Positions 11,875 through 15,196 of a stretch of DNA of 56,636 bases are shown one piece after another. Position 1 is the stretch's first letter. Each line of letters starts with the position of its first letter. Below the pieces are notes generated by a model, which had not been told where the DNA came from, ran no database searches, and saw nothing but the letters and a program-made list of their open reading frames with translations. Source of the DNA: an uncultured Gammaproteobacteria bacterium (GTDB lineage Bacteria > Pseudomonadota > Gammaproteobacteria > Steroidobacterales > Woeseiaceae); contig CALBPI010000083.1 in assembly GCA_937899415.1 (NCBI GenBank), positions 1-56,636 on the forward strand. Reading direction: 5' to 3'. A program made the translations under genes and the position numbers.

Positions 11875-13161
11875 ATGGCATCGCATCAGGGGCTTTTGAT
11901 ATTGATGGCTCTTGCGCTGATGGCAGGTGCCGCTGGCGGGATGGAGCAAGAGATGACAAAGACCTCAACAGCGCAGCGCCTGACACTGGCCGCCGAGCCG
12001 GTGCACGAAATTGGCCAGCTGGCTCGTGAACCCATGGTGGTCGCGCATCCGGATGGCACCCTGTTTCTTGCCGGCTTCGGTTCGAAAGTCACGGGTGTCG
12101 ACCCCAATAAACCCCCGCTCCTCTGGAAAAGTACCGACGGTGGCCTTCAATGGACGCCGGTCGCCGTGGGCAACGCAGAGGACGGCGCGCGCGGTAACTC
12201 AGACGTGGATCTCGCCATAGGCCCCGACGGTGCGTTGTACTTCGTCACCATGGGCTTCGATCGAAGCACCTTTGAGGGCACCCACATCACCGTCGGCGTG
12301 AGTCACGATGCCGGCGAAAACTGGGACTGGACCGTGCTTTCGGAGACTCGTGGTGACGACCGCCCCTGGGTAGCGGTGGCACCCGATGGCACCGCGCATG
12401 TGGTGTGGAATGACGGCAAGGGCGTGAACCACGCGAGCAGTACCGATGGTGGTCAGCGATGGACGCGGACAGACAAAAGAGTTTTCGACGTGGGCGGCTC
12501 CAGTCATCTGGCCGTAGGACCCGAGGGCATGTTGGCAGTGAGGATTACGCCGATCTCGGCGTCTGGCCGTCAGTTCGATGAGGGCGTCGACAAAGTAGCC
12601 GTCAGCACCGACAAAGGACGCAGCTGGGTTTTGCACGACGCACCCGGGCAGCTCGTGTGGGACCCGACGTTCCAGCAACCCGGCGTGATTCCGCGCTGGG
12701 TGGAGCCGGTAGCCTGGGATGCGCAAGGCGCGCTGTACTCACTCTGGAGTGAGGGCACCAATGTCAGGCTGGCCCGCTCAACAGATCGTGGTGCGAGCTG
12801 GGCAATCCACGAGGTTGCCGACGATCAGATGGCGGCCTTCTTCCCCTATCTCGTGGCGCAGCCCTCGGGCGAGCTGGCGGCTACCTGGTTCACGGGCAAT
12901 CGGCAAGAAGACTCGCTCTTCGTGAATGTGGCGCACTTCAGCGCCACCGCGTCGGCCGATGCAGCGCCTCGGATTGTGCGCGCTGAGCCGTTTGTTCCTG
13001 AGACCTGGCAGGACAGGGTAGACGTCAAAGCGCGGGACACGGCTGGCGAATATGTCCCGGTGCTGTTCTTGCCTGACGGTACGCTGGGCGTCGCGACGCC
13101 AGTGCAGGACGCACACAACGATCGCTACGGCTTCACGTGGTGGCGGTTCGAAGTGGAATAA
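11875..13161 (+). CDS. Secreted BNR/Asp-box repeat protein (sialidase-like fold)
   Basis: The 428-residue protein starts with a hydrophobic export signal (LLILMALALMAGAAGG). It carries at least five Asp-box motifs of the S-x-D-x-G-x-x-W type (KSTDGGLQW, SHDAGENW, SSTDGGQRW, STDKGRSW, STDRGASW), spread across a six-bladed beta-propeller. The fold is that of exo-alpha-sialidases and related secreted proteins. I did not find a convincing arginine triad or catalytic Tyr/Glu pair, so sialidase activity should not be assumed. It diverges from the Fur-boxed receptor, with 233 bases between them. Confidence 0.72.
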   Translation: MASHQGLLILMALALMAGAAGGMEQEMTKTSTAQRLTLAAEPVHEIGQLAREPMVVAHPDGTLFLAGFGSKVTGVDPNKPPLLWKSTDGGLQWTPVAVGNAEDGARGNSDVDLAIGPDGALYFVTMGFDRSTFEGTHITVGVSHDAGENWDWTVLSETRGDDRPWVAVAPDGTAHVVWNDGKGVNHASSTDGGQRWTRTDKRVFDVGGSSHLAVGPEGMLAVRITPISASGRQFDEGVDKVAVSTDKGRSWVLHDAPGQLVWDPTFQQPGVIPRWVEPVAWDAQGALYSLWSEGTNVRLARSTDRGASWAIHEVADDQMAAFFPYLVAQPSGELAATWFTGNRQEDSLFVNVAHFSATASADAAPRIVRAEPFVPETWQDRVDVKARDTAGEYVPVLFLPDGTLGVATPVQDAHNDRYGFTWWRFEVE

Positions 13162-13224
13162 CGGTTGGCGCGCCCGGCGGGATCCCTATGTTTGACCTTC
13201 TGCCCGCCGGCCCTCCCTCATTGA

Positions 13225-13242
13225 CTTATTTGTACAAATAAG
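13225..13242 (+). promoter_or_regulatory. Perfect palindrome, probable ArsR-family operator
   Basis: CTTATTTGTACAAATAAG is an exact 18-bp palindrome ending 13 bases before the regulator's start codon. Wider flanks GACTTAT (13223-13229) and ATAAGTC (13248-13254) form a second inverted pair. AT-rich palindromes of this kind next to the gene are typical ArsR/SmtB operators and imply autoregulation. Confidence 0.72.
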
Positions 13243-13255
13243 CAAATATAAGTCG

Positions 13256-13543
13256 ATGGATGATGCACAACGCCAGGAACTCGCCGACCTTCTCAAAGCG
13301 CTGGGCGAGTTCAATCGCCTGTCTTTGGTGTATGAGCTGTGCCAGTGCAACGCACCGCAGAATGCCATGTGCCTCTGTGAATGCTGCAGCGTTGATTCAT
13401 CCGTGGTGTCACGCCACTTGAAGGTGCTCGCCCAACAAGGCGTGGTCCAGATGGAGAAAAAGGGGCGTGAGCGTGTGTATTCCCTCAACCGCAGCGACGT
13501 CGCCGACAGGCTTCGCGCGCTCGCGGATCAGATTGAGGGCTAG
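13256..13543 (+). CDS. ArsR-family metalloregulator with a cysteine-rich sensing region
   Basis: The 95-residue protein is a winged-helix ArsR/SmtB repressor. Helix-turn-helix residues CCSVDSSVVSRHLKVLAQQG align with the DNA-reading helix of ArsR. Six cysteines cluster before it: C29 and C31 (CQC) and C39, C41, C43, C44 (CLCECC). The second group lies exactly where classical ArsR has its ELCVCDLC arsenic/antimony site. A thiophilic ion such as As(III), Sb(III), Cu(I), Cd or Hg is therefore the likely signal. The start ATG lacks a strong ribosome site, so a short leader is likely. It is followed 27 bases later by a cysteine-rich peptide gene that should be in the same transcript. Confidence 0.88.
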   Translation: MDDAQRQELADLLKALGEFNRLSLVYELCQCNAPQNAMCLCECCSVDSSVVSRHLKVLAQQGVVQMEKKGRERVYSLNRSDVADRLRALADQIEG

Positions 13544-13570
13544 GCCTGCAAACTTGGGAGAACATCAGCC

Positions 13571-13666
13571 ATGACCGACGAGAAAAAATGCGATTGCGAC
13601 TGCGAAACCCGCAAATGCTGCGAAGAAAAAAGCTGCGAGTGCTGCGCGGAGCGCTGCTGCTGCTAA
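13571..13666 (+). CDS. 31-residue cysteine-rich metallothionein-like peptide
   Basis: An ATG at 13571 opens a 31-codon frame ending in TAA, with a purine-rich ribosome site (TTGGGAGA) about 8 bases upstream. It begins MTDEKKCDCDCETRKCC and ends in CCC. In total 11 of 31 residues are Cys (positions 7, 9, 11, 16, 17, 22, 24, 25, 29, 30, 31), arranged as CxCxC, CC, CxCC and CCC, between charged Lys, Glu and Asp residues. There is no signal peptide or hydrophobic segment, so it should be cytoplasmic. It follows the thiol-type ArsR regulator directly. I infer a metal-sequestering peptide controlled by that regulator. It matches no bacterial metallothionein family I know, and it is short enough to be missed by gene callers. 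Confidence 0.78.
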   Translation: MTDEKKCDCDCETRKCCEEKSCECCAERCCC

Positions 13667-13678
13667 GTCCGTCGAGAC

Positions 13679-13698
13679 CGCCGGTCACCTGACCGGCG
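13679..13698 (+). terminator. Hairpin between convergent peptide and apbE genes
   Basis: CGCCGGTCA and its exact complement TGACCGGCG are separated by two bases, 12 bases after the peptide stop and 5 bases before the end of the convergent gene. There is no T-run, so it is a possible bidirectional terminator or transcript-end stabilizer. Confidence 0.45.
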
Positions 13699-13702
13699 AC
13701 AC

Positions 13703-15196
13703 TCAGCGCGCCGTCGATGCGGCTCTGACGGCCCCGTCGTTGCGGTTCGTATCAGCGACTCGTTGCCAGCGGATGGCGATGTCACCCAATTCACCCTCGG
13801 CGGTGACGCGCGCCTCGACGGGCGCGGAGAGGTCGATATCAAAGGTCTGATAGGTGTGCCCACCGTGCTCGCGGGCCGCCTCAAGGTGCAGGCGGAACTG
13901 GCTGCCCGCGACAGGCTTGCCGCGGTCGTCCCGCCCATCCCAGCTCACCGAATAACTGCCGGGCCGCCGCGTGGCCCGCGCGTAGCCATCGAGAAGCTCT
14001 CGATTTTCCCGTCCTACTGCCCGCCACCAGCGCCGGTTTTCCTGCGCCCAGCGTTGGCTGTCGCCGAGGATCAGTAGATTGCGAACGGGCTTGCGTTCGC
14101 TGTCGGTGATCCACAGTGCGACGTAGGGACGACGGTACTTGCCGCTTTCCACCCGGGGAATCTGAAAGTCTACGGTCATCACCGGTATCGAGCCTGACTC
14201 GCTTGCGCGCTCAAGCGCGCGCCAGCCGTCCGACACGAGCTGTTGACCACCCTGCAACACCAGCAGTAGCTCTATGCGTTCCTGCCCGGCCGCCCATTCG
14301 AGCGCATCGCTGCCGCTGACGCTGGCGGCAACGGTTGCGGCGACATCGGCCGCCAACGCGGTATCGGCAATCGCGAAGCCAGATGTGCCGTGCGCCACGG
14401 GCCAACCGTCGCGCGTGGAGAGAATCTGGCTGTAGTCGCGACGACGAACCTTGAAAGTCCGGCCGCTGTGACCGCTCGCCGCTAGCGCCTGGTTGCTCAA
14501 CTCGACAGTACCGTCGCGGGCTGCTACATCCGCTGGCGTCGCCGAGAGACCCACACGCCAGGGCACATTCCCTTCGCTCGTACCGACATAGAGACCGTCC
14601 CCGCCGATATCGACCTTGATGCCGACCGCGTTCGGCACCACCGAACGCATTGCGGCCATGGCCTTGTCGATGATGTAGCCCTTGGCAATGCCACCCAGGT
14701 CGAGACTGACACCCTCTGGCAGTGCATACGTGCCGTCAACGGGCACCGGCAGTTCGGTCGCGCGCAGCGTTCTGGCCAGTGCGCGCAACTCGCGTCGGGC
14801 GGGTGGCGCGTCCTGACGCTCCGCATCGCGCCAGGCGCTGCGAATCTGACCCAGCTTGCAGCTGAACTGCCCGCCGGTCGCCGACTCCCAGTGGCGGCAT
14901 TGGCTGATCAGCTCGCGAAGTTCAGGCGACATCGTCTCCAGAACCCGCGCCTGATTCAGCCGCGACACCTCGCTGTCCGGTTGATAGTCGGATAGCAGGG
15001 CCTCCAGACGAGACGTTTCCTCAAGGGCCGCCGCAAAGGCGGCGTCCGCCTCGGAACGACTCACGCCGACCACCGACAGGTCCATGCTGGTGCCCAGCAC
15101 GCCGCCGTAATGACGCGTCATCGTTTCGGCCGACACCGCCCCGGCCAGAACCGTCGCAGCCAGAACGGCGGCGGTCTGCAGCAATCGCATTGTCAT
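13703..15196 (-). CDS. FAD:protein FMN transferase (ApbE) fused to DUF2271
   Basis: The 497-residue protein has a signal peptide (MRLLQTAAVLAATVLAGAVSA). An ApbE domain follows (about 25-320) with the family's SDYQPDSEVSRLNQ region and the SLDLGGIAKGYIIDKA signature. The last part (about 345-480) is a DUF2271 domain (VDFQIPRVESGKYRRPYVA, then YSVSWDGRDDRGKPV). ApbE links FMN to Thr/Ser of exported redox proteins. DUF2271 and PepSY genes recur beside apbE in flavin-based envelope electron-transfer clusters, and here DUF2271 is fused on. It lies 26 bases downstream of the EF-hand gene, behind the Fur palindrome, so iron control is likely. I saw no flavinylation target motif (D/S-x-T/S-GA-T/S) in the neighbouring proteins. 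Confidence 0.85.
   Translation of the reverse strand: MTMRLLQTAAVLAATVLAGAVSAETMTRHYGGVLGTSMDLSVVGVSRSEADAAFAAALEETSRLEALLSDYQPDSEVSRLNQARVLETMSPELRELISQCRHWESATGGQFSCKLGQIRSAWRDAERQDAPPARRELRALARTLRATELPVPVDGTYALPEGVSLDLGGIAKGYIIDKAMAAMRSVVPNAVGIKVDIGGDGLYVGTSEGNVPWRVGLSATPADVAARDGTVELSNQALAASGHSGRTFKVRRRDYSQILSTRDGWPVAHGTSGFAIADTALAADVAATVAASVSGSDALEWAAGQERIELLLVLQGGQQLVSDGWRALERASESGSIPVMTVDFQIPRVESGKYRRPYVALWITDSERKPVRNLLILGDSQRWAQENRRWWRAVGRENRELLDGYARATRRPGSYSVSWDGRDDRGKPVAGSQFRLHLEAAREHGGHTYQTFDIDLSAPVEARVTAEGELGDIAIRWQRVADTNRNDGAVRAASTAR

Follow-up and report, generated by a model that had tools for sequence, protein, structure and literature searches.

The stretch of DNA analysed here (56,636 nucleotides of an uncultured gammaproteobacterium, hereafter the window) carries an arsR-type gene followed on the same strand by a gene for a peptide of 31 residues, 11 of which are cysteines. 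We propose that the two constitute an autoregulated metal buffer, consisting of a CxCxxC repressor of the ArsR/SmtB family and an all-thiolate mini-metallothionein. This reading is considered likely, with a probability of about 0.77. It rests on conservation of the peptide gene, its near-strict pairing with arsR, a conserved operator-like block in front of the pair, a ribosome site preceding the peptide only, absence of other genes from the operon and enrichment of COG0523 genes in the vicinity. The features concerned are as follows.

13221 to 13249, plus strand: predicted promoter/operator, with TTGACT, a 17-nt spacer holding a palindrome, and AAATAT; it lies 6 nt before the arsR ATG.
13256 to 13543, plus strand: arsR-type repressor gene, 95 residues, with invariant Cys29 and CxCxxC (Cys39, 41, 44).
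13556 to 13560, plus strand: Shine-Dalgarno-like GGGAG, 10 nt from the peptide ATG; a plausible ribosome site, judged by sequence.
13571 to 13666, plus strand: proposed mini-metallothionein gene, 31 residues, 11 cysteines, supported by conservation and pairing.
13679 to 13698, plus strand: 8-bp hairpin after the peptide gene, a possible transcript end (fold -23.1 kcal/mol, z only -1.64).

The cysteine-rich peptide and its pairing with ArsR

The 96-base open reading frame 13571-13666 (plus strand) encodes MTDEKKCDCDCETRKCCEEKSCECCAERCCC, whose cysteines form CxCxC, CC, CxCC and CCC clusters. Between the end of the arsR-like gene (13543) and the peptide ATG (13571) there are 27 bases. Among 459 ORFs of 20-60 residues in the window, the peptide alone reaches 25% cysteine, the runner-up having 19%. 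As a control, 200 order-1 random windows were searched, and none of their 139,733 ORFs combined at least 10 cysteines with a cysteine fraction of at least 35% (top fraction 27%). Chance is therefore no explanation for the peptide.

Close ArsR homologs were found in four of 99 relatives' genomes, namely the window's own and three others (G053, G064 and G080), whose ArsRs are 78-81% identical to that of the window. A peptide with all 11 cysteines is located 3' of arsR in the same four genomes. Using an alignment of these four ArsRs, species genomes of GTDB 220 (84,980 in total) were scanned; 67 pattern matches were retrieved and 31 loci confirmed. The peptide is present 3' of arsR at each of the 31, at gaps ranging from -26 to +56 bases. 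A profile search detected exactly one copy of the peptide, just 3' of arsR, in 35 of 36 distinct genomes with an ArsR ortholog. These 36 represent every distinct genome in which an ortholog was found, L039 being the same contig as that of G053 and the L059 pair being identical to the G459 pair. The ortholog group scores 161 bits or more with a profile of 34 orthologs. The best other match listed scored 101 bits, some listings being restricted to E 1e-22 or better. The single exception is a cyanobacterium (G877, locus L201), in which the ArsR ortholog and the promoter block are intact and other DNA follows arsR; the profile search found the peptide neither beside arsR nor elsewhere in this genome. 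Loss of the peptide from this genome is conceivable.

The peptide is rare. A sample of 398 genomes from the whole phylum contained a single carrier, the window's own genome. Weak peptide matches in four relatives (E 0.28-0.99, L035-L038) were taken as chance, the matched stretches being devoid of CxCC and CCC.

Alignment of 34 peptides displays the pattern C-x(1,2)-C-x-C-x(4,6)-CC-x4-C-x-CC-x3-CCC. Ten of the cysteines never vary, and the eleventh is missing only from the peptide of L045 (33/34); no column other than cysteine is invariant. Across 31 named loci the cysteines are encoded by 204 TGC and 136 TGT codons. Since both codons are in use, it is the residue rather than the DNA that is conserved. 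Histidine is missing from the window peptide; two of the 31 named peptides contain it, and one contains an aromatic residue. The peptide meets the traits of metallothioneins in the broad sense: it is small, about one third of its residues are cysteines arranged in CxC/CC clusters, and aromatics are few. That it binds several ions through thiolates is inferred from sequence alone, there being no metal-binding or expression data.

We compared the peptides with known families. A Pfam search with all 34 peptides returned at E of up to 1 only LSR (8 members, best E 0.15), that is, no significant match and no metallothionein model. The NCBIfam search, which also bears on a relation to MymT and other named bacterial metallothioneins, was made with two natural peptides and a third close to the consensus, and gave no match at E of up to 1. 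The peptide profile retrieved from PDB, at E 10, only two spider peptides (0.83). In the open-access literature searched, judged by titles and abstract openings, no description of the peptide was found.

Two comparisons help to place the peptide. In SmtA-type metallothioneins of bacteria, histidine is used besides cysteine, hydrophobic residues are present and the fold resembles a GATA zinc finger (PMC10612145), whereas the peptide described here has about 30 residues and is all thiolate. The peptide does not fit the SmtA/BmtA family (Pfam Metallothio_Pro), as there is no model match and the histidine ligands and hydrophobic core of a zinc-finger fold are lacking. The alpha-domain of mammalian metallothionein, which forms M4Cys11 (PMC10243857), has 11 cysteines like our peptide, but the parallel is limited to this count. 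The alpha-domain is about 30 residues in size and its cysteine spacing differs from that of the peptide; moreover, the latter is encoded by a bacterial stand-alone gene beside arsR.

An earlier note, made from the window without database searches, had claimed this frame, its 31 residues with 11 cysteines in the four clusters, a distance of 27 bases behind an ArsR-type gene, a ribosome site and the lack of a matching named family. Frame, composition and clusters held exactly, as did the distance; the ribosome site held as a plausible GGGAG, and the lack of a family held for Pfam (34 peptides) and NCBIfam (three peptides). The note would have been refuted by a frame not conserved where arsR is kept, and the outcome was the opposite, the sole departure being the cyanobacterium mentioned above.

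An antimicrobial or toxin reading of the peptide was also considered. It was dropped on inference, as no signal-like segment was seen by eye and the peptide is coupled to a metal-type repressor.

Promoter, ribosome sites and boundaries of the unit

In front of arsR there is an inverted repeat (13220-13233/13234-13247) with 14-nt arms that are 86% complementary. A 29-nt block near TTGACATATTTGCgCAAATATGCAAATAT is located upstream of arsR at all 31 named loci, which score 19 to 29 of 29 against its consensus. Random 90-mers score 12.9 on average and 19 at maximum (n=2,000), so that the weakest locus merely equals the random maximum; besides, the consensus was derived from the very loci scored. 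In 29/31 named loci, 5-9 nt separate the end of the block from the start codon of arsR. A strict sigma-70 scan called no promoter in the window, 13221-13249 included. If both hexamers do represent a promoter, the operator would fill its spacer and arsR would be nearly leaderless. This is inferred from sequence, in the absence of DNA-binding data.

Ribosome sites are distributed unevenly within the pair. A Shine-Dalgarno-like motif precedes the peptide at 31/31 named loci and arsR at 2/31, the background rate for ATGs of any kind in this DNA being 16%. With a stricter motif these values are 27/31, 0/31 and 3.4%, respectively.

On its 3' side, the window's peptide gene faces a convergent apbE-type gene (ApbE/DUF2271) that ends at 13703, and the gene before arsR, coding for a BNR-repeat protein, ends at 13161. 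The hairpin at 13679-13698 lacks a T-run and was not called as a terminator; its strength is not clearly above that of shuffled sequences. At 30 loci we examined the first ORF of 110 residues or more that follows the peptide gene; in 21 it is convergent, as is the neighbour in the window. In the remaining nine the ORF is codirectional and at least 248 bp off, so none of the 30 loci has such an ORF within 100 bp of the peptide. Because no codirectional gene follows closely, the unit looks like two genes with the peptide last.

These data bear on the possibility that the peptide is a leader whose cysteine codons control attenuation of downstream genes. Its shortness, cysteine richness and CCC end, as well as the hairpin found soon after it in the window, would suit such a role. 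On the contrary, there is no other gene in the unit for a leader to control, most neighbours are convergent, the hairpin is weak (see its z above) and the downstream genes vary among loci. We regard this explanation as all but excluded.

Several neighbouring genes may be mentioned in their own right. At L003 (619-1521, minus strand), a HupE/UreJ_2 gene is divergent from arsR and could share its operator. At L069 (174-1381, minus strand), the upstream region contains a DUF6702 gene as well as one that resembles HupE by eye. The window itself contains between 8789 and 18515 genes for a TolQ/ExbB-like protein (by eye), a TonB receptor, ApbE-DUF2271, EF-hand and PepSY_TM proteins and a HATPase_c (histidine-kinase-type) protein; by its gene content, this region resembles a cluster for TonB-dependent uptake and flavin-linked reduction.

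The sensor, the metal and the proposed mechanism

The window ArsR passes the NCBIfam model NF033788 (metalloregulator ArsR/SmtB) with 60.9 bits at a cut-off of 55, and scores 21.8 against Pfam HTH_5, slightly below the cut-off of 22. Alignment shows that Cys29, Cys39, Cys41 and Cys44 are invariant in 34/34 ArsR orthologs. Placed before the DNA-reading helix, they are candidate metal ligands as inferred from sequence, though no binding data exist. The best PDB matches of the ArsR profile are Lmo1102, CadC and CzrA; in the alignment with CadC, the query's CLC lies over CVC. Lmo1102, CadC and CzrA sense metals among Cd, Pb, Zn and Co.

The AlphaFold model of ArsR is a winged helix with mean pLDDT of 74.5. 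Its residues 30-47, which include most of the cysteines, are mostly irregular and poorly determined, residues 34-37 falling under 50. Foldseek placed CadC, CzrA and SmtB on top, none of them below E 0.001 (0.002 or weaker), and the As(III)-responsive ArsR 6j05 at rank 16. CadC and CzrA are thus the closest solved relatives by profile and also the top fold matches, and the CxC is aligned with that of CadC. Unlike in these proteins, the pre-recognition helix is predicted by the model to be replaced by a short, low-confidence, cysteine-rich loop (NAMCLCxCC).

Further, we examined genomic context of the pair. Clustering of 392 ORFs from 32 loci revealed a single non-ArsR cluster recurring at more than four loci, which is the COG0523/CobW GTPase (8 ORFs at 7 loci, within about 8 kb). 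Genes with PF02492 (COG0523/CobW) lie within 5 kb of the pair in 6/31 genomes (expected at most 0.17, P 2.6e-8) and within 15 kb in 10/31 (expected at most 0.50, P 1.6e-10), expectations being derived from the density of 75 such genes in 128.9 Mb. As a control, other ArsR-like sites of these genomes were counted by hand: COG0523 was found within 15 kb of 4/75 and within 5 kb of 3/75 of them, from which the pair differs with Fisher P of 0.0006 and 0.018, respectively. The enrichment was spotted only after inspecting all recurrent neighbours. In 21/31 genomes there is no COG0523 gene within 15 kb, some contigs ending earlier, and 3/31 lack any at E 1e-10. No COG0523 protein was among the six scanned neighbours of the window's own pair.

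Three of five nearby COG0523 proteins scanned (L046, L051 and L052) pass the curated cut-off for the zinc metallochaperone ZigA; the best models for those of L057 and L064 are PRK11537 and CobW, below cut-off. Of 90 neighbours scanned in the first set, two contain DUF1826 and two FUR. Zur is the best match of the Fur-like protein at L045 and Fur that of the one at L048, both below cut-off; a hisI-type protein, also at L048, scores above the cut-off of its model. Zur regulons include COG0523 and hisI2 (PMC6103462), and Zur-regulated COG0523 clusters include DUF1826 (PMC2770081). Surroundings of the pair resemble COG0523/ZigA zinc clusters in that COG0523, hisI-type, DUF1826 and Fur-family genes are also found near it. 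However, those clusters answer lack of zinc, whereas the ArsR switch would answer excess. In the main text of PMC2770081 the words "ArsR" and "metallothionein" do not occur.

The COG0523 enrichment makes zinc or cadmium likelier than arsenic. This assignment is statistical and comes from gene context; the identity of the metal is inferred, and we consider zinc/cadmium its likely value.

Alternatively, the same switch might be dedicated to detoxification of arsenite or mercury, to which the name ArsR would point. This would be in accord with the CxCxxC motif (Cys39/41/44) conserved in 34/34 orthologs. CxCxxC is the pattern of the As(III) site in E. coli-type ArsR. Counter-signals also come from single loci: L046 has MerC, and L056 has a gene for a phosphatase of the LMWPc family together with one that, by eye, is aquaporin-like. 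Against this explanation stand the lack of any recurring ars pump, arsenate reductase or mer enzyme at 32 loci, the COG0523 enrichment far over background, and the CadC-/CzrA-type character of the best PDB relatives, though the fold of 6j05 is matched as well. We therefore find it unlikely.

Another possibility is that the peptide is a metal carrier that delivers zinc to COG0523/ZigA GTPases or metal to its own ArsR. The enriched COG0523 genes, three of them ZigA-type, and the fact that each carrier has a single copy, invariably linked to the sensor, speak in favour of it. On the other hand, COG0523 is missing from the vicinity in two thirds of the genomes (21/31) and altogether from three, and a peptide in which cysteines alone are invariant has little left for a specific docking surface. 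This explanation also appears improbable.

Bufferins are copper-chelating RiPPs (PMC12452194), and a small cysteine-rich peptide adjoining a metal regulator might be the precursor of a similar copper binder. Yet no modification enzyme recurs among the 392 ORFs of the 32 loci, although an unlinked enzyme is not excluded and neighbour Pfam counts are limited to the first 25 families out of 115 and out of 135. In addition, all 31 named peptides have their first cysteine between residues 5 and 12, so that no room is left for the usual leader. A RiPP precursor is thus very unlikely.

We return to the metal buffer as the preferred reading. SmtB represses smtA, and AzuR represses nmtA via a 12-2-12 inverted repeat (PMC8790569). 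In Synechococcus (SmtB-SmtA) and Anabaena (AzuR-NmtA), as in the pair proposed here, a repressor of the ArsR/SmtB family controls a small cysteine-rich metal-binding protein; nmtA is far from azuR, whereas arsR and the peptide gene are adjacent on one strand. By analogy with these precedents, we propose a metal-released operator combined with a chelating peptide.

At low metal, an ArsR/SmtB-type dimer would occupy the palindrome within its own promoter and block transcription. Once the level of a thiophilic ion goes up, with Zn2+ or Cd2+ as the most likely candidates and Cu+, Pb2+, Hg2+ or As3+ as possible ones, the ion would bind the cysteine-rich loop through Cys29 and Cys39-x-Cys41-x-x-Cys44, and the metal-bound repressor would release DNA. 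A bicistronic mRNA would then be made, with the arsR start almost at its 5' end and without a ribosome site; the peptide, having a good one, would be produced in larger amounts than ArsR. The 11-cysteine peptide would wrap the metal in an all-thiolate cluster, for which M4Cys11 or several Cu+ would be suitable. Free metal would fall and the repressor would reset. The promoter hexamers, derepression, leaderless start, relative expression and cluster stoichiometry in this scheme are inferred, as is the metal, since no expression, metal-binding or DNA-binding data are available.

The earlier note had seen here a minimal metallothionein under a thiol-type ArsR, made when a toxic or excess metal is sensed. 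This is supported as the best reading, with metal binding and induction still inferred. It is refined in two respects: context favours zinc/cadmium-type homeostasis over arsenic, and arsR with the peptide gene appears as a scattered yet multi-phylum cassette.

If the proposal is true, the peptides represent a metallothionein family not described in the literature searched, about 30 residues long, based on an all-thiolate principle like that of eukaryotes and tied to its own sensor. Genes of about 30 codons are easily missed by gene callers, and no Pfam or NCBIfam model recognises them, so bacterial metal buffering may be undercounted. Such a compact sensor-plus-sponge unit would also be a candidate for biosensor or remediation use.

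Phylogenetic spread and a second type of ArsR-linked peptide

According to deposited classification, carriers of the pair belong to seven phyla: Pseudomonadota, Planctomycetota, Bdellovibrionota, Cyanobacteriota, Nitrospinota, Calditrichota and Myxococcota. Named strains among them are Halioglobus pacificus KCTC 23430, Alteromonas sp. 5E99-2 and Cf. Phormidesmis sp. LEGE 11477. The carriers are for the most part metagenome-assembled genomes, and single phylum placements may be wrong. Phyla are intermixed in the ArsR tree, Calditrichota grouping with Planctomycetota at 97/97 and a Bacteriovoracaceae row with four gammaproteobacteria at 95/94; the bootstrap is not fully settled, with ten forks open. 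This mixing, along with the near-constant pairing, suggests that the two genes are transferred as a pair, an inference drawn from the ArsR tree only.

No ArsR matches at 1e-12 were found in the plasmids or phages searched, and no peptide matches in plasmids at E 10. The cysteine-codon pattern occurred in at least 120 stretches of viral contigs, where frames were considered only if shorter than 70 residues or fitting the fuller pattern. The 80 loci scanned proved to be cysteine-codon runs or unrelated frames without the ArsR motif and were rejected. When viral contigs were scanned with an ArsR profile, a single match came up, which is distant and partial (44% over 39 residues).

In the class of G475, the Bacteriovoracaceae genome with locus L051, 12 further ArsR genes scoring 83-101 bits were detected, which form the group nearest to the orthologs. 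Ten of them (L208, L210-L213, L215-L219) are followed 3' by a different small cysteine-rich peptide at a gap of -10 to +18; L209 and L214 have no cysteine-rich peptide 3' of arsR. In this second type the cysteine cluster comes first, and 9/10 peptides end in an amphipathic-looking helix (FLRHLAEFFDKK type). Three of them were scanned and matched nothing in Pfam or NCBIfam. Shortly before several arsR starts of this group, TTGCA/TGCAA repeats can be seen by eye.

A bolder reading is possible, in which ArsR-coupled thiolate peptides make up a broader, so far unrecognised class and the pair represents one of its branches, another being the peptides with a terminal amphipathic helix (FLRHLADFFDKK type). 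These might be one-sensor/one-sponge cassettes moving between phyla, the peptides being more than sponges, namely dedicated metal-transfer partners of the zinc-chaperone system. The sister status of the ArsR groups is based on scores, not on a tree.

ArsRs with lower scores (48-71 bits, L194-L200) were found in the order of G466; none of their genes has a small ORF with four or more cysteines within 400 bp 3'. Those of L194-L199 share a recognition region of CC-x-(I/V)D or CTVD type, and some possess a C-terminal CC.
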